Assembly (NCBI GenBank): GCA_006503475.1
Contig: RSEH01000201.1
Coordinates: forward strand, 24,701-88,700
Reading direction: 5' to 3'
DNA length: 64,000 bases
DNA from: Stentor roeselii
Lineage: Eukaryota > Ciliophora > Heterotrichea > Heterotrichida > Stentoridae
Shown: positions 1 to 29,954 of the stretch, piece by piece
How positions within the stretch are numbered: position 1 is the first letter of the stretch
Layout of the letters: each line of letters begins with the position of its first letter
Program-made: the position numbers and the translations under genes
The notes under the pieces: model-generated
Database searches by the model: none
What the model saw: the letters and a program-made list of their open reading frames with translations, nothing else
Told to the model about the DNA's origin: nothing

Positions 1-69
1 ATTGATTATTCTTTAGAAACAACCATCTAATCTTCGATAAACCTAATATTATACTTTGGCTTATAATAA

Positions 70-8970: not shown

Positions 8971-9466
8971 TGATATCAAGTATTCAATTGTGTTCCAAGT
9001 GATAATATACTTTAAATTTCCCTCTAACGTCCTAGAAATATTTACGAAATTGAAATTGACCTAAAAAACTGGAAAATCTATAACTTTGTTTCTAAAGTTT
9101 ACCAAATGCCGCTACTTTATGATTATAGATATGCTTATTGTATAATCACATTGAAAAGGTTGTTTTCACTCAAACTTCCAAGAATTTCGCATAGATTATA
9201 TTAAATATTTCAGCTGGAAAACAATATTTTATAAATTTATTGGTTTATGAGTTTTTTTATAATAATTCAAGCCAAAAATAAGAGAAGCTAATGAAGGAAA
9301 TATAATTATATCTACACACTTTATAGAATAATATCCAAAATATCAATTTAAAATGAGAATAATCTTGAAATTGAATTGAATCTAAAAAGGGTCTGAAAGA
9401 TAATACATAAAATCAATCTTTGAGTATAAAATATAAATCGCTTCTCTTTAGTAAAAATCTATAAAT
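8971..9466. other. Intergenic region upstream of the first B-box/coiled-coil gene
   Basis: No ORF of note. The stretch from about 9240 to the start codon resembles 13945-14169, upstream of the paralogous gene, including a TTTATGAGTTTTTTT-type run and an ATAAAT run just before the start. The duplication therefore includes the 5' flank, and shared promoter elements probably lie here. Confidence 0.5.
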
Positions 9467-10868
9467 ATGTCCTGCCAGATTCCAGATTGTAAAGGGAATA
9501 TCAAATTCAGGTGTTTGACTTGCAAATATAAGCAGTTACTTTGTAAAGATCATAATGATTCCCATAGGGATCAAGGTCACGAAACAAAAGAAATCGCAGA
9601 TGATCTTGTCAAAATCTTGAATGAGAAAAAACTTCAGATTCGATCAGATAATATTCATAATAAAATCAAAGAAGAAGGATTAAAATTGATCGGTCTTGTT
9701 AAAAATATCCTGATTCCTTCTATCAAATCTTCAACAGATGCTCAAGTGATAGAAAATCTTGAAAATTTTTATAATCACGATACAAGAAATCTTTATTTGC
9801 AAGAAACAATTGAAAATTTAACGAAAGACTTAGAAATATGCTTCAATAATACTCTTGAAAAGTTAGACTCTGAAGTTGTGCAAAATTCAAGGAAATTAAA
9901 AGATGTAAAAATCAAAGAACTCACTGAGAAGCAGGATAAGATTGAAAAAGAATTACAAGAAAAAGATATAAAAATTAAACAACATACTCAAGAGATTCAT
10001 AAGAAAGATGAAGATTTTGAACTTATAATAAATGAATCTAAAAAACAAATCAATAGTTATATGGTGAAATCTCAAGAATCCGAAAGAGAATCTGATAAAT
10101 ATAAAATAAATATCAAAGTTTTGGAAAAAGAAATTCAAGAAAGAGAAAGTAAGATTGGTATTCTAACAACTAAAAATGAGAAGCTACAAAATGAAATTAA
10201 TATCCAGATTCAAAATTCAGGAAATGATGATAAGAATCACTTAAAATATTTTTCAATGTATCAACAGAGTGAAACCGAGATTATTCGTCTAACAAAAAAA
10301 AATCTAGAACTAGAAAATTCACTTACCAATGAAATTCAAAAGTCAGAAGAAAATTACCAGAATTACTTAAAACAAATTTCAATTAATCAAAAAAATACAT
10401 CAAAACTTATCAAAATATATGAAGAAAAGAATAAAGAAGTAAACAATTTACTTAAAACTTCTTCAATAAATTTAAATAGCAACTGTAAGGTTTATCCAGT
10501 TTTTAATAGTCTAGATATTGAAAAAAAAAGAAAATTTGTTAGAGAAAACTGGAGCTTTATCACTGTCTATGGTCAAGAATACAAAATGACAAATAATTGC
10601 TCTTATTTGTTTATATGTATTGATCATTCAGGTAGAAATAAAGCAGATTGTAGAAATTATTCAAGGGGGTAAATTTATTGAAGAAGGTACAAGATAATAA
10701 GATTCAGCAGCTTTAAAATATAATAACCGCAAGTTTCATTTAGACAGTCTGAATTATTCAGGGAATTGTATTCAACATGCAGTAGAGATCTGGAACCTTC
10801 AAAGCAAGAAGTTGGAGGAGTTCTACCTTGATGACACTGAATGCATATTAGCAGATTGGGAAAGTTAA
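9467..10868 (+). CDS. B-box-like zinc finger plus coiled-coil protein (copy A), three introns
   Basis: The uninterrupted frame stops at 10672, but three tiny introns (10617-10631, 10650-10665, 10687-10701) restore a frame to TAA at 10866-10868, giving 451 residues. The exon junctions read ICRNKADWGKFIEED. Copy B at 14170-15184 has all three introns at matching places, with conserved coding on both sides. The N terminus (residues 3-45) is a Cys/His module resembling a B-box (C..C, CLTC, CKDHN, H..H). Residues about 50-340 are mostly coiled coil. The C-terminal ~110 residues (from CKVYPVFNSLDIE to the end) form a conserved domain I do not recognise, including VRENWSFITVYGQ and HAVEIWNLQ. A TRIM-like architecture without a RING; function unknown. 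Confidence 0.85.
10617..10631 (+). other. 15-nt intron 1 of copy A
   Basis: GTATTGATCATTCAG, with A at position 10. It splits a TGT codon after its first base. The equivalent intron in copy B contains a TAA that would otherwise truncate that gene, which is strong support. Confidence 0.85.
10650..10665 (+). other. 16-nt intron 2 of copy A
   Basis: GTAGAAATTATTCAAG, with A at position 10. Its length of 16 provides the +1 shift needed to join the upstream and downstream frames; splicing creates a TGG codon. Confidence 0.85.
10687..10701 (+). other. 15-nt intron 3 of copy A
   Basis: GTACAAGATAATAAG, with A at position 10. It removes an in-frame TAA and joins GAA-G to AT-TCA, giving EEDSAAL. Confidence 0.85.
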
Positions 10869-11309
10869 TAGATATTAGATTAGATTTAAACAACTGCCTT
10901 AAAGGATATTTTCTGTCAATGCTAAATCGATTCTATTCTTTGAATATAATCATTGGTTAAACTTGAATTTATTTAACTGAAAATAAAGTGACTTTTATTA
11001 TTTGAAGAAAGAATATAGTTCATTTAATATAATTAACAGAGTAGATATTTTTCATATTTTTGATTTAAAGAAATTCAAGAAAAATCTGAAGTTTTATCAG
11101 AAATGAAGAAGGTTTTTATGAAATTTTTAGAAAAATTAAAAATAAGAAATAAATGAATAGTCGCTTGCGATGAAATCACTTTGACAACAGGCTCTTAGCT
11201 AGTTTCTAGGTAAAAAAAATAACGCTACTTCTTTTGTGATTTTCATCATCTGGATGCGAGGAATACTTATTTCCGCATCATCAGCTTTATCGGTACTACA
11301 TCCATCTGA
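10869..11309. other. Intergenic region, no gene seen
   Basis: About 440 nt of AT-rich sequence with stops in all frames. No repeats or paralogous blocks recognised. Confidence 0.5.
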
Positions 11310-11720
11310 TCCGTCACGTGATAATTGATATAATTCCATTTATCACTTTTTTCTTTTACTCAACAATTGCTTTTAGTTTGATTTTATTTAAATTATCAGA
11401 AACCAAGCACTCTTACACTTATGTCCTGGCAAAGACCTGGGAAATGAACCTGACTTCCTTTGAAGGAGAAGATTATTTTGGGTATGTTTATTTGGCTTTT
11501 GCTTTTATATGATTTTCAATCCTATTATCATGCTTACTCTGCTTGTGTCGATCATGAGTCATACTTTTGATCGACTCATGATAGGGTGGGTATGACTTGT
11601 GTAAAATGATCATTGAAGTTGAACTTCTTTGCTTTTGGAAAAGAAATATTAAGAAAAAATGCATTTGCATGTGTGTAGACGTGATGATACGGAATTTGAA
11701 AGTGATAATTTTCTTGAGTT
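11310..11720 (+). pseudogene. Fragment of a polycystin/TRP-like ion-transport protein, broken
   Basis: A frame reads a hydrophobic span, then YVLAKTWEMNLTSFEGED, then YFGYVYLAFAFI, followed by TGA. Downstream, after a frame change, it reads MIIEVELLCFWKRN. This order (a pore-like region, a last membrane helix, then a helix rich in E and aromatics) is typical of the C-terminal part of ion-transport domains in large ciliate WD40/ion-channel proteins. At least one stop and one frameshift interrupt it, and no 15/16-nt intron repairs them. Identification is by eye and tentative. Confidence 0.4.
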
Positions 11721-12788
11721 GATGATAGGGTAAAAAATGTTCAGAAAGATGTCAATAGTCTTGATGAAATTTAAAGCTGAGTATTGAAAATTTGAATTTT
11801 CAGATGAAAATATTCGAAAAGTTGAGTTATGAACATATGAAATCATTATTACGCAAGAACCAAGTTTATAGGAATAGTTAATTTAGGTGTTTAGAGTTTT
11901 TAAATGGATTAAAGAAGAGTAATTAGTCAAAATTGGAATTATTTATTGATTCCTAATAAATAATGAATTGATTTACTTATGAAGAGTAATGATATCAAGG
12001 CTACATAACCTTTATATGTTACAAACCTAATTCTGTGATAATTTAAATACTTTGAGATATTTGACTTAATTAAATTTTAAATCATCCTTTTAATTCTAAC
12101 CTTCAAATTTGTTTGATTGAATAATGAGCCAGAACCGAGTTGAGATAAATGATTTCCAATTTTTGAAAAAATGTAAGACTCTAGGTCTTGTTAGTTGTTA
12201 AGCGCTAATTTGACAGCCAGGTCTTTAAAAGCATTTAATAAATGAGGTTATACGAAAGGAAGTAATTAGATAGAAAGTCAATAATCACTTCTTGATCTTT
12301 AGATAATCCCTACTTTTTTAAATAGTGAAAGGAGAATTATCAATTAGAATGAAGTCAATAATGAACCTGGTATATGAATATATATATATTCTATATATTT
12401 GGATAGAAATACTAAATCAAATATCAAAAGAAATGAGGATAATAGAGCGTGATATATTTGAACAGTTTTAAAAAACTACTTTTTCATTTCGAGATTTTCT
12501 AGTCTAAACATTTAAAGTCGCTACTCTAACTCGAAAATAATGAAAAAAGCTAAAAAGCAGCTATCTTAAGTACTCTATTGATTAACAAAATGCCTCAATT
12601 TTTAACAGGTAATTTCAAGATGAGTTTCTCTTGTTGAGAAATGAATTACTTTCATCAAATCAAAAAATTTAACGATAATCACTCAAAAATTAACTAAAGC
12701 TAGAATTAATTTTTAAATAAGTTCAAAACCTTCTAATTCTAAAACAATCCTCCCAAAAAATCCATTCAAATATCAATCTATTCTAAAT
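11721..12788. other. Intergenic region, no supported gene
   Basis: About 1.07 kb, AT-rich. An ATG at 12124 opens a 26-codon frame (MSQNRVEINDFQFLKK...) that resembles the start of an AGC-type kinase domain but stops at once and is not continued by a small intron. A simple TA-rich run lies near 12376-12400. Nothing else seen. Confidence 0.4.
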
Positions 12789-13316
12789 TTAATGATGCTT
12801 AATCTTGAGCTGCGATATAACTTCATCAACAGTAGATGAAAAGAAAGAATTAAAAACAATTCTTCTAAAAAAAGGACGAGTCAATGGTTTGACCATGACA
12901 TGCAAATGAAGATGCAAGATGCTGTTGAAAGCTGGCTTATGAAAGATCATATCACATCCTTGATCCCCAAACTGATTTGACAGGTTCAAAGCGACATTCT
13001 TCATATGAACTAATAATTCCAAGTCACTATTTTTCAAAGCATTCAAATTTTTAATGTGTCTTTTAGGAATTATTAGAAGATGAGGAGTAGCGTAAGGACT
13101 GATGTCATGAAAAGCGATAACCTGATCGTCCTCGTAAACTTTTGTGTTCATTTCTTTCACAAACCAGCAAAATAAACAACCATCTACACCTGCTACTTCT
13201 CCTGGCTTGTCGTACTTATTGAACTTTGATGGTCCCCAGAGTTTATAAGCGGTTTTAGCTAGGACTGCTGAGCAGAAGATTCCTAATGAATAGCCGAGTA
13301 TCTCTAGGTACTTCAT
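12789..13316 (-). CDS. Membrane-anchored HIT/HINT-family hydrolase
   Basis: 175 residues. A hydrophobic segment at about 5-27 (ILGYSLGIFCSAVLAKTAY) probably anchors the protein. The HIT domain follows: a CLFC pair, VYEDDQVIAFHDISPYATPH, LLIIPKRHI, and the catalytic HIT motif HLHLHVMV at about 136-143 (His-x-His-x-His). HINT-type proteins hydrolyse nucleoside phosphoramidates and similar nucleotidyl substrates; here that is a family inference. The CLFC near the domain start is common in HINT proteins, where it can bind zinc. It starts at ATG and stops at TAA. It is the intact partner of the pseudogene at 8533-8970, and both lie upstream of a B-box/coiled-coil paralogue on the opposite strand. 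Confidence 0.9.
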   Translation of the reverse strand: MKYLEILGYSLGIFCSAVLAKTAYKLWGPSKFNKYDKPGEVAGVDGCLFCWFVKEMNTKVYEDDQVIAFHDISPYATPHLLIIPKRHIKNLNALKNSDLELLVHMKNVALNLSNQFGDQGCDMIFHKPAFNSILHLHLHVMVKPLTRPFFRRIVFNSFFSSTVDEVISQLKIKHH

Positions 13317-14169
13317 ATTGAATTATAGAAAATATAGTGAATATGATGGTGGTTTTAAGAAATCTGAATCTAATTATTTACTCTGTTGCAGATGATACTT
13401 CTTTCATATGATCGAAATGGTGTAAGAAAGATATTTGTTTGGAAAAGATCTTATTATTAAAAGAATCATTTATCATATAATTAAAGACCTTCTTCTCAGA
13501 GTTCTCAGTGATTTAGACACATTTATATATTTCAAATGAGTTTCAAGTGATAGTCTATTGAATTTGATCTCAAACATCGTAGATACATTTCAGTTGATTA
13601 AAAATCCTGAAAAATCTCTTAATTCGCCTTTAGATTTCCCGAATCCAACTCTAAGTGTTGGTAATTTAATCTTTGATAAATAATAATATAGCTTAATTCT
13701 GTGTATTGGGTTTTGTAATATATTAGATATAATTCGAATATAGTTTAGATCATTAGAGAATCTGTAAATAGAGTTTTTACATGAAAATTGATGTCTTTAA
13801 ATAAAATCTCTTTATGATTACACAATTCGCTTATTGATCCAGATCTCAATGGAAGACATAATTTCCACTTTAAAATTCCTACAATTTAGATCTATTCAAT
13901 CAAAATTTCTAAATTGCAAGAACAAAAAGATTTAAAGATACTGATTTATGAGTTTTTTTTAAAATTATCAAAGCCAAAAACATAATGAAGCTTGATTAAT
14001 GAAATGCATAAATATATGTCAAATACTATAAAAAATGCATCTAATAGATTTCAAGATTATAAACTTTAAATTGCTTAGAATTCTTGAGACCAGGAAATAA
14101 TATAAGGTATATGATCAATCATTAGACTTAAAAGTATAAATAGTTCTTCTAAAATAATTATCTATAAAT
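13317..14169. other. Divergent intergenic region between HIT gene and coiled-coil copy B
   Basis: 850 nt, no ORF. The right half (from about 13945) resembles the flank of copy A at 9240-9466. The promoters of both divergent genes must lie here. Confidence 0.5.
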
Positions 14170-15184
14170 ATGTCTTGCCAGTTTGATAATTGTGAAGGGA
14201 ATATCGAATTCAAGTGCTTGAACTGTGAAAATAATCGGTTCATCTGTTATGAACATGCAGAATCCCATCGGGTTAATAGTCATCAAATTGAACAAATCAC
14301 AGAAGATCATATAAAAATAATGATTGATGAAATTCATAACAAAATCAAAGAAGAAGCATTACAATTGATTATAGATATTAAAGAAATCCTCATACCTTCT
14401 ATAACATATTCAGAAGATCTTTTAAATATTCAAGTTGTAAAAAATCTTGAAAATTTCTATAAAAACGAGATAAGAAATAATTATTTGAAAGAAAAAATTC
14501 AAATTTTCAAGAAAGATTTAAAGATATGCTTCAATAATAATCTCCAAAATTTACACTCTGAGGTTGAAAAAAGTCGAGAAAAAGATATAAAAATTAATGA
14601 GACTGAAGCAAAAGTTCTGATAAAAGATGAAAATATTAAAAAACTTTGCGATCAAATCGATTACCAGAATTACTTTACAGCCATTTCAATTAATCAAGAA
14701 AATATATCAAAACTTATTCAAATCTATGAAGAAAAGAATAAAGAAATAAACAATTTACTTCAAAGACCTTTAATAAATTTAAATAGCAAATGTAAGGTTT
14801 ATCCAGTTTTTAATAGTCTAGATATTGAAACAAAAAGAAAATTTGTTAGAGAAAACTGGAGCTTTATCACTGTCTATGGTCAAAAATACAAAATGACAAA
14901 TAATTGCTCTTATTTATTTATATGTATTGATTATTAAGGTAGAAATGAAGCAGATTGTATATTTTATTCAAGGGAGTAAATTTATTGAAGAAGGTACAAG
15001 ATAATAAGATTCACCAGCTTTAAACAATGATAACCGTAAGTCTTATTTAGAAAGTTTGAATCATATAGAGAAATGTATACACCATGCAGTAGAGATCTGG
15101 AACCTTCAAACCAAAAAATTAGAGAAATTTTATCTCAATCATAATGAATGCAACTTTTCATATTGGGAAAGTAATAAAATTTAG
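14170..15184 (+). CDS. B-box-like zinc finger plus coiled-coil protein (copy B), three introns
   Basis: A paralogue of 9467-10868. Unspliced, it would end at a TAA at 14935-14937. That TAA lies inside a 15-nt intron (14924-14938), and with introns 14957-14972 and 14994-15008 also removed the frame runs to TAG at 15182-15184, giving 322 residues. The N-terminal Cys/His module (CQFDNCEGNIEFKCLNCE) and the C-terminal domain (CKVYPVFNSLDIE, VRENWSFITVYGQ, ICRNEADWSKFIEED, HAVEIWNLQ) match copy A closely, including near-identical DNA around 14780-15010. The central coiled coil is about 130 residues shorter than in copy A. Function unknown. Confidence 0.85.
14924..14938 (+). other. 15-nt intron 1 of copy B
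   Basis: GTATTGATTATTAAG, with A at position 10. It carries an in-frame TAA and aligns with intron 1 of copy A. Confidence 0.85.
14957..14972 (+). other. 16-nt intron 2 of copy B
   Basis: GTATATTTTATTCAAG, with A at position 10. It has diverged more from copy A than the flanking exons, as expected for an intron. Confidence 0.85.
14994..15008 (+). other. 15-nt intron 3 of copy B
   Basis: GTACAAGATAATAAG, identical to intron 3 of copy A, with A at position 10. Confidence 0.85.
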
Positions 15185-16127
15185 TTTAGATTAAAATTAC
15201 CTTTATGAACTATTCTGGCACTCTTGATATCCTCTTGGATCAAAGCAGTTCAGAAATACAATGATACGAGTAATAAATTGTTTCTTAGAGTATAATTATT
15301 AAAATATGTTAATATCTTATCTTTATAGCATATTACAAACCCATGTTCTATGTAAATAGAGAAAATCCTATTCTAAGTTTTAAATTTTGATGAAAATTAA
15401 AGAAAATGAACAATTGTGAAATCGATCTCGGAAACTTGGAGTCATTGAGTATCAAAAGAAAATAGTTGCAAAATAATCATAAAGTAATTTATTGAATGGC
15501 CCATCTTGAAGCAATAATCACGAATAGGAATTAATCGATCATATGAAATTTGAGTAGCAAGTTTCAATTAACATAGACAACAGTATACCTTAACACTTAA
15601 TGTTTAGTGCTCTTTTGAAAACTTTGAGTTTATTTAACTTTTAATTGCAGACATCTTCTAAGCACATTAGGCAATTAGGAATTATTTCTTTGCATTTTTC
15701 ATTAATAATGCAATAAAGAAATGCCAGTCCAAATGATTATTTACTAATTAATTATGATTTTAGTTCGAATGAAAATATCCTGAATTATAAATTGAAAATT
15801 AATTAGTATATGTTGAAATTTTTCATATTAAACTGATTCAATTTAATACAAATCAATGTAATTAAAGTTTTAAAAAACTATTATTTAGCTAATTTTAAAA
15901 TAACCCTCTTAAAATATTACGAATCCATATTATCCTTATGCTAAAACTATAAAAACCTGAAACCATCAATCATCCCAAATTTGCTAAATTTTTAGTTATC
16001 ACCAATCATTACCCTCAAAAATCCTATCATTTAAATAACTTTCTTAAATAACCCAATTCTTCTAATCCAATTCAAATGAAATATTTTACTACAGCTTTTA
16101 ATTACTAATCCCTTAACATTCAATCCA
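15185..16127. other. Intergenic region, no gene seen
   Basis: About 940 nt of AT-rich sequence between the convergent copy B and the first RING-PHR gene. Stops in all frames and no repeats recognised. Confidence 0.5.
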
Positions 16128-18026
16128 TTAGAGGGCTAGAGAATAAAGAATCCCAAGTATCGGCCCCTTGAGATCACAATGATTCCCAGTACGATCAAGG
16201 AATTCAAAAGTAACCTGGTCCTTTACAACCTTATTATCTCCTTGACAAAGAGCTTTTCCACAATAAAAATACCCGTCTTTATAAAAACTAACAAAAATCC
16301 TAAAATTCTTCCCATTCAATTGTTTAGAAAACGAAAGAAAGCTAAATTTTCCCCTAGTAACCTGCCCTTCTTCCAAGAGTATCTGATTATTTTCATTATA
16401 AACTCTAATATAAACCTGCATCTCATTCTGTGAAATAAAAAAATCTTTTTCCTTAACCGCCCCAGCAAAAATAATTCCAAAAAATTTGATAACCAGACTT
16501 GTCCTCATTTCTACAAAAGCATGTGAATTTCTGCTAGCATGAAATTTTCTTTTATCTTCCTGATTAACAGGGAATATCATATCAAATCGATACAATTCTC
16601 TAACTTCATAATCAAAACTAGTCTCATTTCGAAAAATAGGACTTTCCGAGTACATCGAAATGATTGTCAACTTTTTCCTCAAAGAATGCCCAGGATCTCC
16701 AATAAACGACCCAAACCTTTCAAACAAGGTCCTATCAAATTCAGCAGTGCAGTTAATCCTCAAAATACTAGCAAGATTTCTGAAATTTCCAAGAAGCATC
16801 AAACAATTATAACAAAGTACAGAACAATAATCAACAACGACATAAAACGCGTATTCAATTCTGCAATTTGAGCACTCTATATGAAAATTCAAGTACTTTA
16901 TAGTGTTTAAGGCTGTTTCATGTACAACAAGTGAAGCTTCACTTGTCACAGCAGGATATTTGAGACTATCACAGCAGCCTTGGCTCTGAGAGACACATGC
17001 TTGGCAGATGATGCAAGCGCAAAGGTTCTGATAAGGGAGATTCTCTGGTCCCATATCCCAAGAGTTGCAAATCTTGCACTTTGGGTAGTTGTAAAGACTT
17101 TCGTCGAAGTAAGGAACAGAGTCTCTGCAAAGACTTCCGTCAATTGGGCATCTTTGTTCTACAGATGTGCAAGTCTTGCATAGAAGATGACCGCAAGGCA
17201 ACTTATAAGGCATTCCTCGGCCTACTTGAAAAGGCTTCAAGCAAGTCATGCATGATCGAGTGTTTAAAGATTTGGAATGTTTTTGAAGGATTAAAAAGGC
17301 TTCCACTTGTTCTCTCACTGTTATGCTATAATCTTGTAAAGTGCAGATCCGGAAAGAACACCCAGTCACTTCTGACTTCGGATATAAAGGGCTTAATAAT
17401 GTTGACCTCAACTCTTTTATTACATCGATTAAAAGAATTGAATTCTCTGGATTGCAATTTTCACATTTTAAAGAAAAATCTCGAAGTGATAGTCTTGATG
17501 ATGATCTTGAATGAACTCTACAGATGTGAGTTTGGGATGAATGGATTGAAAGGATGTTGAAGCGTTTGATGATTTCGAGAAGAGATGATTCTGGATCTTG
17601 AGTGATGAAAATTTTGGTTTCATAACTGAGACATGAACGTGATTTTACTAGTAAATTGTAAAACTTTATTTTGAAGAAGGTTCTTAGGTCCTTGCTCCAT
17701 ACCTCGGATTCTCCTCCGATGTGACAAGTTTCGCAAAGGGTTTCAAAGTTTGATATGTTTACATATGAAGCAGTGTCTTTTAAGCATCTTGAACAGTCTA
17801 CATGGTAATAATTTAACTTGTTTAGAATTGCAGGATCTTCTTGATAATCATCGATATCTTCATATGATAACTCAAACTCTTTGGGGCAGGTTATTGTTTC
17901 ACCATTTGTGTTGTATAAGTATAATGCACATTCTTTACAGCATTTATGACGATTTTTACACTTCAAGATGATTGGCCTTCTTTCGAAAAGATTGAAAATC
18001 TGAGCACATATGCAACATTCTTCCAT
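16128..18026 (-). CDS. RING-RING-PHR-like protein 1, putative E3 ubiquitin ligase
   Basis: 632 residues. A RING-like module at about 4-55 starts with CCICAQIF and has KCKNRHKCCKEC. A second one at about 259-300 reads CMTCLKPF, then CGHLLCKTC and CPIDG. Further CxxC pairs lie between and after them (for example CKIC, CIICQAC, CSNC). The last ~150 residues resemble the PHR beta-sandwich of PAM/Highwire and BTBD1/2: VIKFFGIIFAG, VYNENNQILLEEGQ, YFYCGKAL, VTFEFLDRTGN and a terminal GPILGILYS. PHR domains bind substrates or receptors in E3 complexes, so a RING plus PHR protein is a plausible ubiquitin ligase. The double RING with a C-terminal PHR is inferred from motifs. Paralogues lie at 18205 and 24023. 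Start ATG in a TATAAATGG context, stop TAG. Confidence 0.7.
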   Translation of the reverse strand: MEECCICAQIFNLFERRPIILKCKNRHKCCKECALYLYNTNGETITCPKEFELSYEDIDDYQEDPAILNKLNYYHVDCSRCLKDTASYVNISNFETLCETCHIGGESEVWSKDLRTFFKIKFYNLLVKSRSCLSYETKIFITQDPESSLLEIIKRFNILSIHSSQTHICRVHSRSSSRLSLRDFSLKCENCNPENSILLIDVIKELRSTLLSPLYPKSEVTGCSFRICTLQDYSITVREQVEAFLILQKHSKSLNTRSCMTCLKPFQVGRGMPYKLPCGHLLCKTCTSVEQRCPIDGSLCRDSVPYFDESLYNYPKCKICNSWDMGPENLPYQNLCACIICQACVSQSQGCCDSLKYPAVTSEASLVVHETALNTIKYLNFHIECSNCRIEYAFYVVVDYCSVLCYNCLMLLGNFRNLASILRINCTAEFDRTLFERFGSFIGDPGHSLRKKLTIISMYSESPIFRNETSFDYEVRELYRFDMIFPVNQEDKRKFHASRNSHAFVEMRTSLVIKFFGIIFAGAVKEKDFFISQNEMQVYIRVYNENNQILLEEGQVTRGKFSFLSFSKQLNGKNFRIFVSFYKDGYFYCGKALCQGDNKVVKDQVTFEFLDRTGNHCDLKGPILGILYSLAL

Positions 18027-18204
18027 TTATAGACAATAAATCACACCTATAATGCATGTATATAATTAGAAATATTTTATGAATTATCACTTGTAAGAAT
18101 TGTTGGGATCACTTAAAATTCATATTCTTTAATATTATCAGTATAATAAATCTTGTAACCTACTCTCAAAATAATAATTCCCTAAATCTAATCTAATTAA
18201 ATCC

Positions 18205-20073
18205 CTAAACAGAATATAAAATACTCAAAATAGGTCCCTTCAAATGTTGATTCTCATTACCACTATCAGAGAACTCAAAAGTGATTCCATCAGTAACAAC
18301 TCTACTCCTATCATTACTTAAAGCTTTTCCACAATAAAATCTTCCAGGTTGGTAAAACAATATCTCGATTTTATAATAATTAACTTCAAGTGGTGCTTGA
18401 AATAAGCAGTAGTTCATTTTCCCTTTAGTTTCAAAATCAAATTGATTAACAAGATTTTGTCTATTATGAATTCTCAGCATTATCTGCTTATTCCCATCAA
18501 GACTTCCCGCAACAATCAATCCACAGAATTTGACAGGCTTGTTAACCAATAACTCTAAAACATAAGATTTTTGCTGACTAGCTAAATAGCTTCTTCTATC
18601 TTCTCTGCTTAAAGGGTAAATCTTATCAAATCTTTTTACTTCTTTGAAATTTAGAGTAGATTGAACACTATACCCAGGAAGATGATACTGCCGAGATGCC
18701 AAAACAATTTTATAAATTTTTGTAACAATTGGATCACTGGGTAATTTGCTATCATTTAGAAAATAAATGCTGAAGTCATATAAAGCTTTATCACAGTTCA
18801 CAGTACTTTCAATCTTTAATGCATTTTCACCTGGCTTAACACAACTTGAGCAAATAGGCAAATATTGATCATATGAAAAGTATTCTGAATTATTTCTATG
18901 ACAAAGAGAGCACCTCAGATCAACTTTAAAGTACCTTATTTTATTCAAAGACCTTTTATGCACTTTCAGTCGAGTTTCTCCTGCATTGCAAACGCCATCC
19001 AAGCACTTAGTGCAAAAAGGTATTCTTAAACTGCAATTATCACAGATGATGCAATCACAGAAATAATGATAAGGTAAATATTCAAAACTGAAATCCATTC
19101 TAAGACACGAGCGACATTGAGGGTAGGTGTAAAGACTTTGGTCATAAAAAGGTTGAGCTCCATTCGGATTCCCCCTGTCTAAAGGACAGTAAACTCCTGC
19201 ATTGATACAAACTGCGCATAAAAAATGACCACATATTAACTTGTAAGGCATTCTTAACCCTAGGCTGTACCCTTTACCACAGCCCATGCATGATTTTTGA
19301 TGAAGAGACTGAAGTGGCTGGGTTCTTGCAAGGAAGGCCTCCATCACTGGAGAGATAAGAAAAGGACTCCAATTCAAAAAGTTCTTCAGTACTGATCCTG
19401 GAAGTTCAAAGTTCGTCATCAGATTTTCACCGAGTTCTCTGCAAAAGTCGTAGTAAAGGGTTGGTAGAGTTAAATCTATCCCTGACTTTGAACAACCTTC
19501 GCAGTAAAGGGCAAAGTCTGAAGTACTTAGTTTTGAACAGGCCTGGTTTGGATGAATTGAACAGTTTGAGTTCAGGGTTTTGTAGTTTCTTAGGATTTGG
19601 ACTAGGTTCATTTGGTCTTGAAGGTCGCCTTCGTAGGATTGGAGGATGTAGTATTTCATTTCGTAGCTTAATTCTTTTTTATTTTCTGAGTAAAGGCGGT
19701 GTAGACCTTGCTTTAAGATTCTTGGGATGTCTTTGCTGAATTTCTTTTGATCTTTATTTAGTTTACTGCATGCTTCACAAAATGATTGGAATGTTATCTG
19801 GTCTATGAATAAGGACTGCTCCATTTCATTATTATGATCTCCTGAGCACTGAATAAAGAACCTTTTCAATTTTCTTTCCAAAACTAAATCCACATTAAAG
19901 TCTTTAAGATCACTATAAAACAATTCAGAGCACGAAGGGCATTTTACGACTTCACCATTTGTATCATAGATATATTTCAAACAACTGTACCCGATTTTAT
20001 GTAAGCATCCTAAGATCATAGGCTTGTGCATTGAAATGTCGTACATCTCTTGGCAAACAATGCAGGGTTCCAT
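18205..20073 (-). CDS. RING-RING-PHR-like protein 2, putative E3 ubiquitin ligase
   Basis: 622 residues, same strand and 178 nt upstream of protein 1, with the same layout. RING-like module 1 (about 4-50) starts CIVCQEMYDISMHKPMILG. Module 2 (about 261-302) reads CMGCGKGYSLGLRMPYKLI, then CGHFLCAVC and CPLDRG. A Cys-rich stretch follows (CRSC, CDCIICDNC, CTKC, CSLCHR). The C-terminal PHR-like part (about 470-622) contains FDKIYPLSREDRRSY, VKFCGLIVAGS, FYCGKALS, ITFEFSDSGNE and ends GPILSILYS. The first RING is poorly canonical: the usual His-Cys pair is unclear, so zinc binding there is not certain. Tandem duplication is the likely origin. Start ATG, stop TAG. Confidence 0.7.
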   Translation of the reverse strand: MEPCIVCQEMYDISMHKPMILGCLHKIGYSCLKYIYDTNGEVVKCPSCSELFYSDLKDFNVDLVLERKLKRFFIQCSGDHNNEMEQSLFIDQITFQSFCEACSKLNKDQKKFSKDIPRILKQGLHRLYSENKKELSYEMKYYILQSYEGDLQDQMNLVQILRNYKTLNSNCSIHPNQACSKLSTSDFALYCEGCSKSGIDLTLPTLYYDFCRELGENLMTNFELPGSVLKNFLNWSPFLISPVMEAFLARTQPLQSLHQKSCMGCGKGYSLGLRMPYKLICGHFLCAVCINAGVYCPLDRGNPNGAQPFYDQSLYTYPQCRSCLRMDFSFEYLPYHYFCDCIICDNCSLRIPFCTKCLDGVCNAGETRLKVHKRSLNKIRYFKVDLRCSLCHRNNSEYFSYDQYLPICSSCVKPGENALKIESTVNCDKALYDFSIYFLNDSKLPSDPIVTKIYKIVLASRQYHLPGYSVQSTLNFKEVKRFDKIYPLSREDRRSYLASQQKSYVLELLVNKPVKFCGLIVAGSLDGNKQIMLRIHNRQNLVNQFDFETKGKMNYCLFQAPLEVNYYKIEILFYQPGRFYCGKALSNDRSRVVTDGITFEFSDSGNENQHLKGPILSILYSV

Positions 20074-20535
20074 TTATAATTATAAATAATATAGCTTATA
20101 TATTTTACATTTTCAGAGACAAATCTTTCATCTAAATATCAAAGATAACAAATGAAATTATAGCTAAAAAGTATATTGGTTTTATAATTTGATAATTTAT
20201 TATAGGTATATGGACTGTATGAATGGAGTTGAAAAGGAATAGGAAGCTTTAAAAACACAAAGGAAAGTGAGGAATATAAGTAATGGAAAGAGGTATTAGA
20301 GGATAACTTAGCAGAATGTAATATACGATGCAATATATAGTTCGAATCTGAAATTATCATATTATAGATAATTTCGAGAGTGAAATTAAGTTAAATAATA
20401 TATTATGAAGAAAACCTATGGTAAATTTCAGTATACCATGAAAATTGGTCTATTTTTCTTTACAACATTGAACAGAGAGATTCAAAAACTATTTCCAATA
20501 CTTTACTCCAACTATAAATTTCATATAATAATCTA
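20074..20535. other. Intergenic region, no gene seen
   Basis: 460 nt. A minus-strand open frame at 20139-20360 (73 codons) is low-complexity and unlike any family I know, so it is not called. The promoter of RING-PHR protein 2 should lie at the left end. Confidence 0.5.
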
Positions 20536-21279
20536 TCAAACAATAAGAAAAATTTCATTTCCAGCTCTAAAGTAACTCTCTGCTAAGCCTCTCCGATACT
20601 CCTTATTCTCAGCTTCAAACAATTCCTTAATTTTCTTAAAAACCCTCCCTTCCTCAATCTGAAAAAAGCAGATTCCATTAACCAATTCAAAACAAAACTT
20701 AGTATTTTTCATTCTTTTCGAAGTTCTATAATCCAAATTCTGTACTTGATTAAAAATCTGAACAACAAGACAATTATTTCTAATATCCAAAACTTTCAAA
20801 ACACTATCTTCAATCAAAAACTCGTCTTGAACATGAACAGGATCTCTTCTGACCTCGACACTAAACATATGAGGATGCGCGCTATACTCGTAAAGTACGA
20901 TTTGATTATTTTGATTATAAACAAAGCCAAAAGAAAGACCTTGAGAATGACCCATCAGCTCTTCTGCCATAATCCAATTATTCAGATCAAGAACAAATCT
21001 GAAACCTGTTCTCAAGTTAATAATTTCTTTAGGAACTTTAAAGTTTTCTAGAAAATCTTCGATATTTTCAAGGTTTTTTCCTTTTTTTAAGAATTTTTTG
21101 CAGAGTAAGGCGAGTTTTTGAAAAGTCATTTGAAATTTTGTGTTTTCACTTTGAAGTGCTGTGAGTTGAGAGAGGTTGTAAAGCTGGTTGATTACGATTT
21201 GAAGGGATTCAGTCTTTGAACTGTCTCTGCAGGTTCTGATGATTGACTTGTATGTAGAAATGAAGTTGATGTCAGTCAT
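20536..21279 (-). CDS. Unknown 247-residue protein next to the USP-like gene
   Basis: I do not recognise this protein. The N-terminal ~90 residues look helical. From about residue 85 (INLRTGFRFVLDLNNWIMAEEL) it becomes a beta-rich segment with alternating hydrophobic residues. The end (RRGLAESYFRAGNEIFLIV) is short and hydrophobic. The start lies 31 nt downstream of the stop of the USP-like gene on the same strand, the tight spacing seen throughout this window. The stop is TGA followed directly by TAG, a double stop. A role together with the USP-like protein is possible but only suggested by position. Confidence 0.65.
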   Translation of the reverse strand: MTDINFISTYKSIIRTCRDSSKTESLQIVINQLYNLSQLTALQSENTKFQMTFQKLALLCKKFLKKGKNLENIEDFLENFKVPKEIINLRTGFRFVLDLNNWIMAEELMGHSQGLSFGFVYNQNNQIVLYEYSAHPHMFSVEVRRDPVHVQDEFLIEDSVLKVLDIRNNCLVVQIFNQVQNLDYRTSKRMKNTKFCFELVNGICFFQIEEGRVFKKIKELFEAENKEYRRGLAESYFRAGNEIFLIV

Positions 21280-21310
21280 TTTATTAAAAATTTCTACTTG
21301 AATGAACTAA

Positions 21311-22576
21311 TCATGTTTCTAATTTAACATATATTAAAACTACAGCTATTTGGTCCAAGACTTCAGCCAAACTAACTCGATTCGCGTTATTTTCTTTAAA
21401 CAAGAACCAACTTTTCCCTCTTTTCACATAAATCGTAAAAACCTCTTCATTTCTCGGGTCTTCACAAACAACAGCATTTAAAGTAAAAATTTTTCCTAAA
21501 ATTTCCATGATTTTCCGATACCTCATCTTATTCCAAACCTTATAAGTATAAGGAATGTCTCTTTTTCTAACAAGTTTAAAACAAATCACATCCCTAACCT
21601 GAACAACTTTTCTATTTCTGCATAAAAATTCTTTACAATATTCACAATTTCCTTCAATTCTTGCATCATCAAATGTTTCTTTAACAGCGATTTCCAAATT
21701 TTTATGAATTTGAAGTTCGACATTCCAAACATCAATCATTTCCAAGTCAACCTTTCCACAACTAAAACATTCAGACTTCATTTCAACCAAGACCTTAACC
21801 GACTGTGAAACTTGATCATTTTCTCCTTCCCTACAAACAACATTCAAAACATCAGTCCATTCAAAGTCTTTCTTCATTCCAACAACTTTCATCAAAGACT
21901 CAAGCGAAACAGATTTCAAAATACAAAATTTTTCATTCATCATTTTCAAGACAAGTTTATTCAAAACTTGTAAAAATCTCGAAGTTTTAGAACTTTGAAG
22001 AAAATTCTGAAAAACCTGAAGTCCCAGCAAGACATTTAAAAAAATCAAAGATTTGTTCAGTTCAGGTGAAACTGCGAAAAATCCGAAAATATTACAAAAA
22101 AAAGTAGAAGTTTCAGTAGTTTCGACTTGGTTCAGCTGAAAAGGCTTGGATTTTAATGTGCTGAGACTTTCAAGACTTGCTCTTGTGGTGCAGGGACTTG
22201 ATAGATAATGAGGAATTGACACTGAAGAAGAAACGGATTTCAGGTCAAAAGGAGATTTCAACTCGATTGGACTCTCTGAACCGTATTTCGCGTTAAAAAA
22301 AATCCATTGTTGGATGTTTAAGATTTTGTAGTCTTTCGGGTACTTTAGACCTGCCTTCAAAGAATTTCCTTGCAAAAGGCTTTTGGTTCGCATCACTCCT
22401 GGACTTTCCCCTGATGATAATGAACTCTGCCATGACTCAAACCATGAGGATTCGACTATGAAGTACTTGCTGGATTTTAATAGGCCTAAAGAATGGAATT
22501 CTGATTGTTCTTCTTTACTGGAAAATTCTAGTTTTAAGGAACTTTTTCTTCTTGCTTTTGGAATTGTTTGATGCAT
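21311..22576 (-). CDS. USP-fold deubiquitinase-like protein, probably catalytically inactive
   Basis: 421 residues. The C-terminal half has the USP layout: two zinc-type Cys pairs (CFSCG near 270 and CEYCKEFLC near 315), and then the segment that in active USPs reads (L)xAVxxHxGxxxxGHYTAYV. Here it reads LNAVVCEDPRNEEVFTIYVK followed by GKSWFLFKENNANRVS and LDQIAVVLIYV. The expected catalytic His before the YT/IY step is Phe (VFTIY). In the region where the Cys box should be (SPELNKSLIFLNVLLGLQVF) no Cys sits after the Asn. The fold therefore seems kept but the active site lost. The N-terminal ~165 residues are Ser-rich and unstructured. Stop TGA. The USP assignment is from motifs by eye. Confidence 0.65.
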   Translation of the reverse strand: MHQTIPKARRKSSLKLEFSSKEEQSEFHSLGLLKSSKYFIVESSWFESWQSSLSSGESPGVMRTKSLLQGNSLKAGLKYPKDYKILNIQQWIFFNAKYGSESPIELKSPFDLKSVSSSVSIPHYLSSPCTTRASLESLSTLKSKPFQLNQVETTETSTFFCNIFGFFAVSPELNKSLIFLNVLLGLQVFQNFLQSSKTSRFLQVLNKLVLKMMNEKFCILKSVSLESLMKVVGMKKDFEWTDVLNVVCREGENDQVSQSVKVLVEMKSECFSCGKVDLEMIDVWNVELQIHKNLEIAVKETFDDARIEGNCEYCKEFLCRNRKVVQVRDVICFKLVRKRDIPYTYKVWNKMRYRKIMEILGKIFTLNAVVCEDPRNEEVFTIYVKRGKSWFLFKENNANRVSLAEVLDQIAVVLIYVKLET

Positions 22577-22788
22577 TTATTAGGATTTTTTAGATAAATA
22601 TTTGGAAAGGTTTTTGAGAAGAGAAGTTTTGAGTTTTTTGAGGAAATTTTAAAATTTTTAATTTGAAGAAATTTTAAATTCCGTCATTTCGATAATTTTA
22701 AATTTTGGAGTAGTGATTTGGGATTGGGTCAGTTGTTTGCGGGTTTTAAAAGAATTATATTGTTCCATTCGTTATATTAAATAAACTA
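22577..22788. promoter_or_regulatory. Divergent promoter region between USP-like and FHA/RING-CH genes
   Basis: 212 nt between two divergent start codons, so both promoters must be here or within the genes. A- and T-rich runs but no recognised element. Confidence 0.4.
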
Positions 22789-24000
22789 ATGTCTGATCAC
22801 TAGTAACACCTAGGCAGCGTTTCTATAAAGATTTTGACTTGGACGAAGGAGTCTCATGGACTCTTTGATTACGAGAGCAGCAGTATCATAAAACATGAAT
22901 TTAAAGTCACTTCAGACAGTTACCTACTACAATCCGAAGACTCAATAAGACTGATATCAAAGCCGATACCCCCTGAACGCGAAGATTCAAAATACCTTCT
23001 AAGCCTTTTAAAAACTCCAAAGTCCTTCACATTAGGCTGTAACGATTTAGAGTTCAAGCCAAAATCCTTAAAATACGAGAAATCCTGGCTAGTCCTAAAG
23101 AACCAAGACAATCAAGGTTACTGTCTATCAGAAGGAGACACAGTACGTCTGGGCAAAGCAAAACTTCGAATAAAAGAAATAAAAGGTCCTCACCTTTCAC
23201 GTCCATCCAAATACATTCCTTTTTCCAAGCACATCTTCCAAGGAGGCATCGGCGAAATGATCGAGTCAGACGACGACCCTCAAATAGTTCAGACCTTCAG
23301 CAGTCAAGACGAGGGAAACCAATGCCGAGTCTGTCTTCAAGAAGAGAACTCTTCTCAAAACCCTCTTATAAAGCCCTGCAAGTGCACAGGCTCAATGGCT
23401 CTTATTCACATCGAGTGCCTTCAGAAGTGGTTCACAAGTAAACTCACAGTTCGAGAGTTCGACAATGCGACCAGCTATTGTTGGAAAAAACTTAAATGTG
23501 AACTCTGCAAATATGACTACCCTGACCGTATTGAAGTCAATGGGGAAAAGTTTGACTTGATGGTGATGAATAAGCCGAGGGATAATTTTATCACTCTTGA
23601 AACGGGACTTAAGATGAATGACTCGAAAAATATCAATGTTATTTCGATTAGGGATAAAAAAAATATTAGACTTGGAAGAGCTCATGACTCTGATATTAGA
23701 CTTTCGGATATTTCGGTATCGAGGAATCATGCTAATGTACAGATCACGGAAGCTGGACTTTTTTTGAAAGATGTAAGTTCTAAGTTTGGAACACTTGTTA
23801 GGATCAAGAAACAGATTACTTTAACTGTTGGGTTTAAGTTTTCGATTCAATGTGGAAGGAACTTGATCACTATTTGTGTCAAGAAACCCTTTCGATTGTT
23901 TGGATGCTTTAGTAAGTGTTCGAGTAAAAAAAAGAGTGAGGAGGAGAATAGCAGGTCTTTTAGAGATGCTACTGATGAAAGTTTTAGTAATCAGTTTTAA
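22789..24000 (+). CDS. FHA / RING-CH (RINGv) protein, one 15-nt intron
   Basis: The long frame has no ATG near its 5' end. A start at 22789 followed by a 15-nt intron (22803-22817) gives MSDHYVSIKILTWTKESHG and a 398-residue protein. Residues about 60-130 look like a degenerate FHA domain (FTLGCNDLEF, EGDTVRLGKAKLRIKEI). Residues about 175-245 are a RING-CH finger: CRVCLQEE, KPCKCTGSM, LIHIECLQKWF, then CELCKYDY, the C4HC3 pattern of MARCH-type ligases. A second, canonical FHA follows at about 275-350 (IRLGRAHDSDIRLSDISVSR, NHANVQI), with the phosphothreonine-binding RLGR/SRNHA signature. This FHA-RINGv pairing is a known ciliate architecture and suggests a phospho-regulated ubiquitin ligase. 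No transmembrane segments, unlike typical MARCH proteins. Confidence 0.85.
22803..22817 (+). other. 15-nt intron in the FHA/RING-CH gene
   Basis: GTAACACCTAGGCAG, with A at position 10. It removes the in-frame TAG and TAA that separate the only nearby ATG from the coding frame. Confidence 0.8.
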
Positions 24001-24022
24001 TAGGTGTATATAGTTAGAATGG

Positions 24023-25900
24023 TTATGATATAAATTTTTTAAATAATATACCTGATATTGGACCGTAGAGGAGTCCGGTATTTTCATGCCCATTAAACAC
24101 TCGAAACTCAATACCTTCACTTTTAAAGTTAGTTCGAAATTCATCCAAATTACTTCCAGAAAACATAAAATACCTATCCAAAAACATCATCTCCACAGAA
24201 AACTTATTACCAATAACTTTCTGCCCAATTTTACAAAACTCAGCAGCTCCTCCAACAGAAAACTCTTGATTAACAACATTATAATTCCAATCTGTAACAC
24301 TAAAACTTCCCTTGACAGTTTCACTTCTATCAAGATGTCCAACACATCCGAAAATAATAAACCCTTTAATCTGTACAATTTCTTCAGTTTCAATACTCAT
24401 AAAATACTTTCCTCCTTGCAAAATCTGAGTATCAAAGACTCTTCGATCATCTCGAGAAACAGGGAAGATATTTTTGTACAAATTAAGAAAACCTCTAAAA
24501 TAAGCCTGTTTTTCAGGTAAATAAGAAAAATAGTTAAATTTCCTTGAATCTATCTTTTTTATGACATGTTCTAAACAATCATTTGTTTTATTTAAATCAC
24601 CAGGCAAAGTACAAAGACACTTTTTCTTCTGATCAGCTTTAATTTCAACCTGTCCTGACAACTCTACATCTAAAGGCAGAGATTTACTTAAAATCATCAT
24701 TAAAAGTCTTTTATTCAGTCTTGGGTAAAGCCTTGTGACAAGTTTTTGACTTGCTCTGCATTTACAGCTGATGACTGGACTTCTCATGCAATGACTGCAG
24801 ATAACACAATGACAAATCAACTTAAAAGGAAGAGCTCCTGGGACTTGAATAGAATTTTTACAAGATATGCAGTTTTTATTCATTTTTTTGAAAGTCAGCG
24901 CTAACACCCTAGATGAAACTTTTCGAGGCTTTAAACAAATTCTACAAGTTTTATCTGAAAGAAAACAAGAAAAACACTTGATGTGAAAACAACTTAGAAG
25001 TAAAGGGAACCTGCCACCAGTTGAGTAAAGTTTATCACAATCGATACAAGCAAGATTTTCAATAAAATTCAATTTTTTCTTAGCAACCATGACACAAACT
25101 TCTGCTAAAAATGCGAAATTCATTTGAGAATTATTAACTCGATGCTTTAAAACACTACTCCAAATCAAGTACCTGAAATTTTTTTTTGAGTTCAGTTCTG
25201 AAAGTTTTTTTTCTGCTAGTTGACTTAAGTTTTTCCCGGAAATTTCAATTAAATGGTTTTGGTTTGTATAAGGAAGGTCTGAAGTGCATTTTTGACACAA
25301 AATATGAAAATTGTTGGAATCGAATCTTAAGGAGGACTCGGGAGATTCTGAATGAAAAGATTTGAAATCACATTCAAATGAACTTCGATTGTAAAAAGAT
25401 AGGAACTTTAAAGCACGGTATTGGCTCATTATATCTTTGTCCATCGTTAAAATGATGAATTTTCGAGATGGCTTTGTCATCAGATCTTTTGTGTCGAGGT
25501 ACTTCTTTTGAAGCATTCCGTGCATTGTTTCTTCGAGTTTATCCAGGGGGACTATATCTTTCAGGTTGTTGAAAAATTTTTCTTCTTTATTGTTAGAACA
25601 GAATTCACAGAAAACTATTTCGAGGGATTTATTGAAGTTAAAGGTTTTTCTTAAATGGATGGGGCAGAAAAGTTGTAATTCTTCGAGTTTTTCTTTAAGG
25701 ATTGGGTGAACCAAAAGTGAATCAGAAGAAGATTGACAAATATCACAAAGAATCCTGGAACTAATACTCAATTTCTCATCCCTCTCTTTATCCTTCTCAT
25801 CAGCACAAGCCCTACAAACAGTATGTCCACAAGAGTACATCATAGGACTTCTTTCCTCCAAATCAAAGAAATCATAGCATAAACTACACAAAAAATCCAT
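24023..25900 (-). CDS. RING-RING-PHR-like protein 3, putative E3 ubiquitin ligase
   Basis: 625 residues from the ATG at 25898-25900, whose product starts MDFLCSLCYDFFDLEERSPM; the frame stays open upstream but that would run into the divergent dynein light-chain gene. RING 1 (about 5-60): CSLC, CGHTVCRAC, CDICQ. RING 2-like (about 283-325): CIDCDKLY, CFHIKCFSC, CRICLK. More Cys pairs follow (CISC, CHCVICSHC, CKC). The PHR-like C-terminal part (about 475-625) reads IFPVSRDDRRVF, VQIKGFIIFG, FSVTDWNYNV, FMFSGSNL, IEFRVFNGHEN and GPISGILF. It is the most diverged of the three paralogues. It converges on the FHA/RING-CH gene with 22 nt between stops. Confidence 0.7.
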   Translation of the reverse strand: MDFLCSLCYDFFDLEERSPMMYSCGHTVCRACADEKDKERDEKLSISSRILCDICQSSSDSLLVHPILKEKLEELQLFCPIHLRKTFNFNKSLEIVFCEFCSNNKEEKFFNNLKDIVPLDKLEETMHGMLQKKYLDTKDLMTKPSRKFIILTMDKDIMSQYRALKFLSFYNRSSFECDFKSFHSESPESSLRFDSNNFHILCQKCTSDLPYTNQNHLIEISGKNLSQLAEKKLSELNSKKNFRYLIWSSVLKHRVNNSQMNFAFLAEVCVMVAKKKLNFIENLACIDCDKLYSTGGRFPLLLSCFHIKCFSCFLSDKTCRICLKPRKVSSRVLALTFKKMNKNCISCKNSIQVPGALPFKLICHCVICSHCMRSPVISCKCRASQKLVTRLYPRLNKRLLMMILSKSLPLDVELSGQVEIKADQKKKCLCTLPGDLNKTNDCLEHVIKKIDSRKFNYFSYLPEKQAYFRGFLNLYKNIFPVSRDDRRVFDTQILQGGKYFMSIETEEIVQIKGFIIFGCVGHLDRSETVKGSFSVTDWNYNVVNQEFSVGGAAEFCKIGQKVIGNKFSVEMMFLDRYFMFSGSNLDEFRTNFKSEGIEFRVFNGHENTGLLYGPISGILFKKFIS

Positions 25901-28631: not shown

Positions 28632-29954
28632 ATGCTAATAATGTTCCAACAGGTGGTTTTCCTGATACATTTCTCAAGTGTATTTTCACAAACCTCTGAA
28701 AATCCTGCATCAAGTCGATTAAAAGATACAGACGATTCTTGGAACTATCTCGGAGTAACAGGCTATGCAGGTCTAATAACAATGAACCCATTGACAGGTT
28801 CTTCCTTATTCTACTGGCTATTTGAGTCAATTGACAGTAACATAACTACTGACTCACGTCCATTGATAATATGGTTAGAAGGAGGTCCAGGATGCACAGG
28901 AACTTTTAATATGATCTGGGAAGGTATATCTCCAATCCTGGTAAACAACAACACCCAGCCATTCAGAACCAATACCAACTACACCTGGTCAACAAGTTAC
29001 CATTTAATGTCAGTCGATTTCCCATACGGAACTGGTTATTCTTTCGCAAATTCCGCAACAGACGAGAAAAACACGACAATTGAATCAACTTATTATTTAT
29101 ACAGATTTTTATTCAAACTTGGCCAAAAGTACCCTCCCTGGTTCAATAGAGATATTTATATTTTAGGACACAGCGTCGCAGGACATTGGGTCACTGGACT
29201 AGGCTGGAACGTCTTACAACAAAACGGGAAAAACACTGGATTTAACATCAACTTGAAAGGAATCGGAGTAGGAGGAGCTTCTATTGATCCTTACAATCAA
29301 TGCCAGACTTATGCGAGCTATGCAGTTGCGAATTCACTTGTCAATGCAGACCAGGGTAAAATAATGAAGTACTACCAAGACCTTATGAGAACTCAAATAA
29401 ATCAAGGACTACTGGAACAAGCGAGTTATAATTTTGATAATATTGTTCAAGCCTTTGCTCAATTTAGTGATGGAGTGAATACTGAAAATGTTAGAATTTA
29501 TACAGATTATGATGAAAGTTTTTTTGATAACTGGATCACTTCTACAGCAATAAGGGAAATGCTGCATGTTGGAAGAACTTCGTGGGTTGGATGCAATGAT
29601 TCTATTCCTGAATACTTTGCAGGTGATGGTGCTAATTCAACTGCACCTTTATTGGAGTATATATTGAATAGCGGGGTTAAAGTGCTGCTTTACTCGGGAC
29701 AAGATGATTTTATTGGCAACTCGCCGAGTGTCGCTACAATGATCAGTGCGCTTAACTGGTCTGGTGTTTCCAGCTTTGAAAGTGCTCAGAAAAAAGTGTG
29801 GATGATTGATCAGAAGGTGGCTGGCTATGTTCAGTCAAATCAAAACCTTACCTTTGCCTTGGTTATTAAAGCTGGACACCTGACTTCTTATGACCAGCCT
29901 GCTGCTGTTAAAAACCTAGTAGAAAGATTTATAAATGGAACAGGATGGGATTAG
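28632..29954 (+). CDS. Secreted/lysosomal serine carboxypeptidase (S10), copy 1
   Basis: 440 residues with a signal peptide (VVFLIHFSSVFSQ, cleaved near 20). S10 landmarks: LIIWLEGGPGCTGTF (oxyanion region), VDFPYGTGYSFAN, the nucleophile Ser in GHSVAGHW, the catalytic Asp in LLYSGQDDFIGN and the catalytic His in KAGHLTSYDQP. Many N-x-S/T sites fit a secreted glycoprotein. The nucleophile box is GHSVAG where the family usually has GESYAG; copy 2 keeps the Tyr (GYSYAG). Substrate preference could therefore differ. It acts in the lysosome, phagosome or outside the cell by family. Copy 2 lies at 31365, 2.7 kb downstream. Confidence 0.93.
   Translation: MLIMFQQVVFLIHFSSVFSQTSENPASSRLKDTDDSWNYLGVTGYAGLITMNPLTGSSLFYWLFESIDSNITTDSRPLIIWLEGGPGCTGTFNMIWEGISPILVNNNTQPFRTNTNYTWSTSYHLMSVDFPYGTGYSFANSATDEKNTTIESTYYLYRFLFKLGQKYPPWFNRDIYILGHSVAGHWVTGLGWNVLQQNGKNTGFNINLKGIGVGGASIDPYNQCQTYASYAVANSLVNADQGKIMKYYQDLMRTQINQGLLEQASYNFDNIVQAFAQFSDGVNTENVRIYTDYDESFFDNWITSTAIREMLHVGRTSWVGCNDSIPEYFAGDGANSTAPLLEYILNSGVKVLLYSGQDDFIGNSPSVATMISALNWSGVSSFESAQKKVWMIDQKVAGYVQSNQNLTFALVIKAGHLTSYDQPAAVKNLVERFINGTGWD

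Follow-up and report, generated by a model that had tools for sequence, protein, structure and literature searches.

Does a run of six neighbouring genes in the ciliate Stentor roeselii encode one ubiquitin system, and what are the three paralogues among them? The genes lie in a stretch of 64,000 nucleotides (the window) that represents positions 24701-88700 of contig C117, in an assembly of 44.4 Mb and 522 contigs. The initial annotation had described three of them, here called G1, G2 and G6, as paralogues with two RING-like modules and a PHR-like C-terminal sandwich, had noted a dead ubiquitin-specific protease (USP) and an FHA/RING-CH protein beside them, and had proposed a candidate lineage-specific, possibly undescribed system. 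Our results support a divergent, apparently lineage-specific protein family, while a system made up of all six genes is unsupported.

The triple-RING-PHR family

The three genes are as follows.

16128..18026, minus strand: G1, 632 residues with RING1, half-B-box a, half-B-box b, RING2, RING3, finger c and PHR (open frame, alignment and ligand scan)
18205..20073, minus strand: G2, 622 residues, layout as in G1 (open frame, alignment and ligand scan)
24023..25900, minus strand: G6, 625 residues, layout as in G1 with fewer half fingers; the most diverged of the three window copies

Their open frames comprise 632, 622 and 641 codons, the last of which opens with TTG. As a Tctex-1 frame on the opposite strand begins at about 25912, the start of G6 is likely to be the second Met, at 25900. 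All seven genes checked have open frames in the standard code, with TAA, TAG or TGA as stops.

The proposed paralogy was borne out, end to end for G1 and G2 (31% over 647 columns, expect value (E) 8e-95) and for G2 and G6 (23% over 668 columns, E 2e-18), and in a match split in two parts for G1 and G6 (E 2e-7 and 6e-4). The nearest intact relative outside the window, C288b, is found on another contig (L025:3203-5110; E 4e-38 with G2). A second branch of the same layout consists of the tandem genes C273a and C273b, C161 and C502 from the same genome, and the database protein P0003; the N-terminal RING of C273a is damaged. We calculated a tree of nine rows, leaving out C202a and C202b (partial layout), other PHR proteins and degraded copies, in which long branches were flagged for G6, C288b, C273a and G1. 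The two branches are separated with 100/100 support, G1 and G2 are sisters (96/97), C288b comes next (at a fork supported by just 88/88) and G6 is outermost. As C288b is placed between G6 and the G1/G2 pair, the three window genes are not one clade in this tree and probably did not arise in one local burst; G1 and G2 alone may represent such a burst. Possibly a still more distant branch is represented by the C202 locus (L027), where at least two genes in tandem, of 629 and 510 residues, show a single RING together with half-B-box fingers; the product of the first gene ends in GPIVGLG, which recalls the end of PHR.

When 5.8 billion proteins were searched with G2, the single match was P0001, a piece of 379 residues that is 99% identical. 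An alignment of four rows (A1) had no match in the protein database, P0001 probably having been dropped by a length filter, and a C273-type alignment matched P0002 (a piece of C273b, 100% according to the search tool, with PF08005 precomputed), P0003 (31%, 721 residues, with the triple-RING-PHR layout) and the TRIM-like P0004 (E 7.5e-3). Because the protein searches gave only near-identical pieces, P0003 and P0004, the family appears to be real, divergent and lineage-specific, as judged from a database that may be thin in eukaryotes. The arrangement had been put forward as not known, and no protein with three RINGs and a PHR domain is recorded in the literature that we searched, which comprised open-licence papers.

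The C-terminal domains are located as follows.

16131..16619, minus strand: PHR domain of G1, residues 470-632 (profile-profile comparison; row of the folded alignment)
18208..18645, minus strand: PHR domain of G2, residues 477-622 (AlphaFold2 model, Foldseek, VIA)
24026..24553, minus strand: PHR domain of G6 (profile-profile alignment; row of the folded alignment)

With HMMER, a PHR profile derived from the genome did not have enough power for G1, G2 and G6, and a profile-profile comparison was therefore used, which gave 96.5% for PHR as compared to at most 4.5% in 60 shuffles; this figure falls to 42.5% without the triple-RING relatives. The fold was modelled for G2, with G1 and G6 entering as alignment rows, and the AlphaFold2 model had PHR entries as its three best PDB matches, so that a check that could have revealed a different fold left the predicted PHR-like sandwich in place. 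The relationship is also backed by a chain of homology through the relatives, as Pfam detects PHR at E <= 0.013 in C273a, C273b, C161, C502 and P0003 (over the cut-off in C273b in that scan); evidence from single sequences is weak, and sequence searches of the PDB gave no PHR match. G1, G2 and G6 themselves stay below the curated cut-off of PF08005, and we therefore speak of a divergent PHR-fold domain and not of a Pfam-grade member. From a viral fold library, a single match under E 0.001 was rejected (TM 0.18).

The PHR domain has several partners in this genome. Besides the triple-RING proteins there are RING-B-box-like-PHR (C15, with its B-box just under the cut-off), RING with three or four PHR domains (C499 and C83, respectively) and a combination with a PH domain. 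The latter, which to our knowledge does not occur elsewhere, was found by Pfam in C179 (L010), where PHR is C-terminal; C59 (L014) resembles C179 in length and PHR position.

The RING-like modules and associated fingers are listed below.

17877..18017, minus strand: RING1 of G1, residues 4-50, seven ligands of the eight, with E (C-x2-E) in place of C or H at the final position
Residues 78-101, 169-191 and 385-408 of G1, minus strand: half-B-box a, half-B-box b and finger c, with the pattern C-x2-[HC]-x15-16-C-x2-C
17130..17252, minus strand: RING2 of G1, residues 259-299, last ligand D (CPID); zf-RING_5 at 20.5 bits, under the cut-off of 27.9
16971..17078, minus strand: RING3 of G1, residues 317-352, all-Cys type, last pair irregular with adjacent Cys (CC)
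19927..20064, minus strand: RING1 of G2, residues 4-49, fifth ligand G and not C
19177..19290, minus strand: RING2 of G2, residues 262-299, last ligand D (ligand scan)
19003..19116, minus strand: RING3 of G2, residues 320-357, eight Cys (ligand scan)
25736..25888, minus strand: RING1 of G6, residues 5-55, eight of eight ligands; zf-RING_UBOX at 30.1 bits, cut-off 25.2
24929..25048, minus strand: RING2 of G6 (ligand scan)
24749..24871, minus strand: RING3 of G6, last pair irregular (C-x-C; ligand scan)

Where two RING-like modules had been counted, alignment and ligand scan identify three in each protein, plus the half-B-box fingers, with zinc ligands that match by column across the four close copies (those of the window and C288b). 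RING2 and RING3 are arranged in tandem and are followed, in G1, by finger c and the PHR domain; G6 and C288b have fewer half fingers than G1. In a shuffle test with a strict RING-core pattern (seven proteins, 5000 shuffles each, G2 counting two cores since its RING1 has lost one ligand), the observed number of cores was not reached once in any of the seven proteins. The number of half fingers, by the general pattern C-x2-[HC]-x14-18-C-x2-C, was reached in 3 of 5000 shuffles for G6 and in none for the other six. We call these fingers half B-boxes because their spacing would correspond to that of B-box ligands 1, 2, 5 and 6; Pfam finds no B-box or coiled-coil family in G1, G2 or G6 at E <= 1.

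All eight cross-brace ligands are present in RING1 of G6 and C288b and in RING3 of G2 and C288b. Pfam detects zf-RING_5 in three stretches each of C273b and C161, most other RINGs of the window staying under Pfam cut-offs; RING1 of G2 scores 26.2 bits for zf-RING_UBOX in a genome scan versus 18.4 in a whole-protein scan. Support for the RING geometry thus comes from ligand spacing and Pfam (RING1 of G6; C273b and C161) and not from structure, because the full-length AlphaFold model is poor (mean predicted local distance difference test score 43), with the RING2-RING3 tandem likewise modelled poorly.

Proposed function of the family

Several known protein types share parts of this layout. The proteins of the PAM/Highwire/RPM-1 (MYCBP2) group, which are giants, have PHR and RING in one chain, and MYCBP2 has two PHR domains according to the titles of the PDB matches found by Foldseek. 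A passage on the MYCBP2-type layout lists an RCC1-like domain, PHR domains, parts binding RAE-1, FSN-1 and Myc, and a RING-H2 (PMC4806438). In contrast to that group, where the RING-H2 is C-terminal to the PHR domains, the window proteins have 620-640 residues, N-terminal RINGs, a single PHR domain in last position and no RCC1 match. BTB-BACK-PHR proteins (BTBD1/2/3/6) also carry a C-terminal PHR domain, which a passage in PMC1257465 expects to be the substrate module of a ligase; those proteins are expected to act via cullin complexes by their BTB domain, whereas the window proteins carry RINGs in the same chain and have no BTB or BACK match at E <= 1 (Pfam). TRIM proteins have a RING first, then B-box-like fingers and a C-terminal beta sandwich, but the window proteins differ by three RINGs, by half B-boxes only and by the absence of a Pfam coiled coil, and so are not TRIM proteins proper; C15, and also C499 and C83, are closer to TRIM within this genome. 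RBR ligases have a RING1-IBR-RING2 arrangement with a catalytic Cys; Pfam finds no IBR match at E <= 1 in the window proteins, whose RING2-RING3 tandem is poorly modelled as stated.

Given the paralogy, the three RING-like modules, the PHR fold (modelled for G2) and the ligand losses, we lean towards G1, G2 and G6 representing a TRIM-like family of the ubiquitin-ligase type; E2 binding, ligase activity, a role in substrate choice and a division of labour among the copies are what we infer beyond these observations. RING1, which alone among the RINGs carries the hydrophobic E2-contact residue in each of the four close copies, is predicted to recruit the ubiquitin-loaded E2 (ubiquitin-conjugating enzyme); in RING2 and RING3 this residue is mostly missing. 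The RING2-RING3 tandem and the half fingers would hold the scaffold, and the PHR domain would pick the substrate, by analogy with the proposal for BTB-BACK-PHR proteins. Of the four close copies, G6 and C288b have a complete RING1 and are likely active ligases, and G1 and G2, which have each lost a zinc ligand of RING1, are likelier to be weak or non-catalytic partners.

A possible, if on the whole unlikely, explanation is that the entire family is non-catalytic and consists of zinc-finger scaffolds or adaptors that are derived from ligases, retain PHR as a binding module and have lost ubiquitin transfer. The lost RING1 ligands of G1 and G2 are consistent with this, as are their RING scores, mostly under Pfam cut-offs, and the E2-contact residue, which, besides being mostly absent from RING2 and RING3, is missing from RING1 in three of the four second-branch proteins where RING1 could be read (C161, C502 and P0003). 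However, RING1 of G6 is complete and over the cut-off, and RING families reach or exceed their cut-offs, with RING1 as the best stretch, in C273b, C161, C502 (where the last ligand of RING1 is unclear) and, with a score equal to the cut-off, C288b. 

An extension of the ligase interpretation, which we regard as rather doubtful, is that triple-RING proteins with PHR as a reader form a ciliate-specific ligase class in which the damaged G1 and G2 are kept as regulators beside the active G6 and C288b. If so, the damaged paralogues would either be competitors for the substrates that PHR binds or act in pairs with active copies.

It is improbable that G1 and G2 are simply decaying copies in a duplication-prone family. 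Besides their ligand losses, this would be in line with the occurrence of degraded family members, one of which lies downstream of G1.

15493..15712, minus strand: degraded G2-like scrap (tblastn, 51% over 37 and 33% over 36 residues)

Broken copies with stops were found at C288:7672-9623 (G1-like 65-92%, G2-like 48-81%, the latter covering only residues 363-621), where the order, G2-like then G1-like, is as in the window. Further broken G2-like copies occur at C339:4230-4955 and C98:1237-2045, degraded pieces of the family on C39 and C363, and a short match (40% over 58 residues) at C453:27641-27790. Those on C288, C339, C98, C39 and C363 are less than 10 kb from the contig starts, which may be an assembly effect; the window scrap is some 40 kb into its contig. 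None of six telomere repeat patterns was seen in the examined DNA pieces, and we therefore do not call the copies subtelomeric. Against decay, both G1 and G2 have full-length open frames of more than 620 codons, and the database protein P0001 shows the corresponding part of the G2 frame to be open in another dataset as well. The starts of C339 (2.5-5 kb, L029) and C98 (1-2 kb, L033) carry, by eye, the same transporter-like scrap together with a degraded G2-like C-terminal part, and are probably a shared duplicated segment.

On the ligase interpretation, the damaged copies offer a view of ligases turning into pseudo-ligases, and the layout with three RINGs allows the cooperation of several RINGs per chain to be tested. 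The passages on PHR in PMC1257465 and PMC4806438 deal with animal proteins (MYCBP2/Highwire/RPM-1 and BTBD). The combination of PHR with RINGs in several ways, and with a PH domain, suggests that the use of PHR for recognition is general and extends far beyond animals.

The neighbouring genes and the question of one system

Between G2 and G6 are three further genes.

20536..21279, minus strand: G3, 247 residues, orphan
21311..22576, minus strand: G4, 421 residues, DUSP domain and USP-like region without the catalytic Cys and His
22256..22471, minus strand: DUSP domain of G4 (Pfam, 48.9 bits)
22789..24000, plus strand: G5, FHA-RINGv protein, ATG at 22789
22803..22817, plus strand: intron of G5, 15 bases, GT...AG
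23323..23508, plus strand: RINGv domain of G5, 47.0 bits, cut-off 21.6
23665..23838, plus strand: FHA domain of G5, 44.4 bits

G3 lacks both a second genomic copy and a family over cut-off, all its matches being weak (E 0.14 or worse). G4 and G5 are what they had been taken for. G4 resembles DUSP-USP deubiquitinases in having DUSP and then a USP-like region, but differs in that its catalytic Cys and His boxes are absent when aligned with the intact enzymes C310 and C247, so that it does not qualify as a USP deubiquitinase; C410 has likewise lost both boxes. No UCH profile matches G4, which is thus outside the set of 92 UCH matches found genome-wide; its USP-type relationship follows from matches at E 1.7e-4 to 2.8e-4 to C410 and C446, almost end to end, and to C70 over residues 101-418 (the USP part), and all three of these relatives have UCH matches. 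Introns of 15 bases are a mark of heterotrichs such as Stentor, and the relative of G5 on contig C161 has one of equal length and place (by eye). G5 aligns over RINGv and FHA with 31 other loci; a second, N-terminal FHA was not found in a PDB sequence search. NCBIfam gave nothing for G1-G4 and G6, and for G5 only FHA-type models far under cut-offs.

That the six genes form one system, with triple-RING ligases, a pseudo-deubiquitinase guarding substrates and an FHA-RINGv protein that reads phosphorylation, is very improbable. It is suggested by adjacency and by contig C172, where another DUSP gene whose USP part is dead adjoins an FHA-RINGv gene. In that pair (L062, C172:32784-35234; loss of the catalytic Cys judged by eye) both genes are on one strand, whereas G4 and G5 are divergent, and the same two gene kinds are joined in both. 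The C172 pair does not carry the argument, because a UCH match within 3 kb was found for one of the 31 G5 relatives (lists compared by eye), with 0.38 expected. On C161, C138 and C257, which carry the closest three relatives of G5, there is no UCH or DUSP match. Also, searches with G3, G4 and G5 gave no match near C288b, C273, C161 or C202, the G5 relative of C161 being 90 kb away.

For an estimate of chance, G1, G2 and G6 were collapsed to one family, so that ubiquitin-type genes make up three of the four kinds in the neighbourhood. We assumed about 21,500 genes, extrapolated from 31 open reading frames of at least 150 residues in the window (some of them shadow frames), and a ubiquitin share with a floor of about 1.5%, being the sum of 79 RINGv, 146 zf-RING_UBOX and 92 UCH matches, where the zf-RING_UBOX count is from 150 of 332 candidates scored, and overlaps and multiple matches per gene were kept. 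With a share of 1.5%, 0.29 such neighbourhoods would be expected in the genome, and with 3%, 2.27. The theme of the cluster is unremarkable, and at the 1.5% floor a mildly lucky find. The cluster comprises one paralogue family, a member of a large family (G5) and one of a widespread family (G4), on two strands, and G3, G4 and G5 are most likely ordinary neighbours that are not parts of a triple-RING machine.

Some further observations concern the surroundings. The next open frame of at least 150 residues downstream of C273b encodes Rpn11, the proteasome deubiquitinase, which is a single case. In the window, the G+C content per kb is 22-33% in positions 1-15900 versus 29-41% between 16 and 30 kb. 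Two related genes (9467-10672 and 14170-14937) share a C-terminal part and have, by eye, a B-box-like start, with no family found by Pfam. The translations of 28632-29954 and 31365-32678 indicate, by eye, a tandem pair of serine-carboxypeptidase-like genes.

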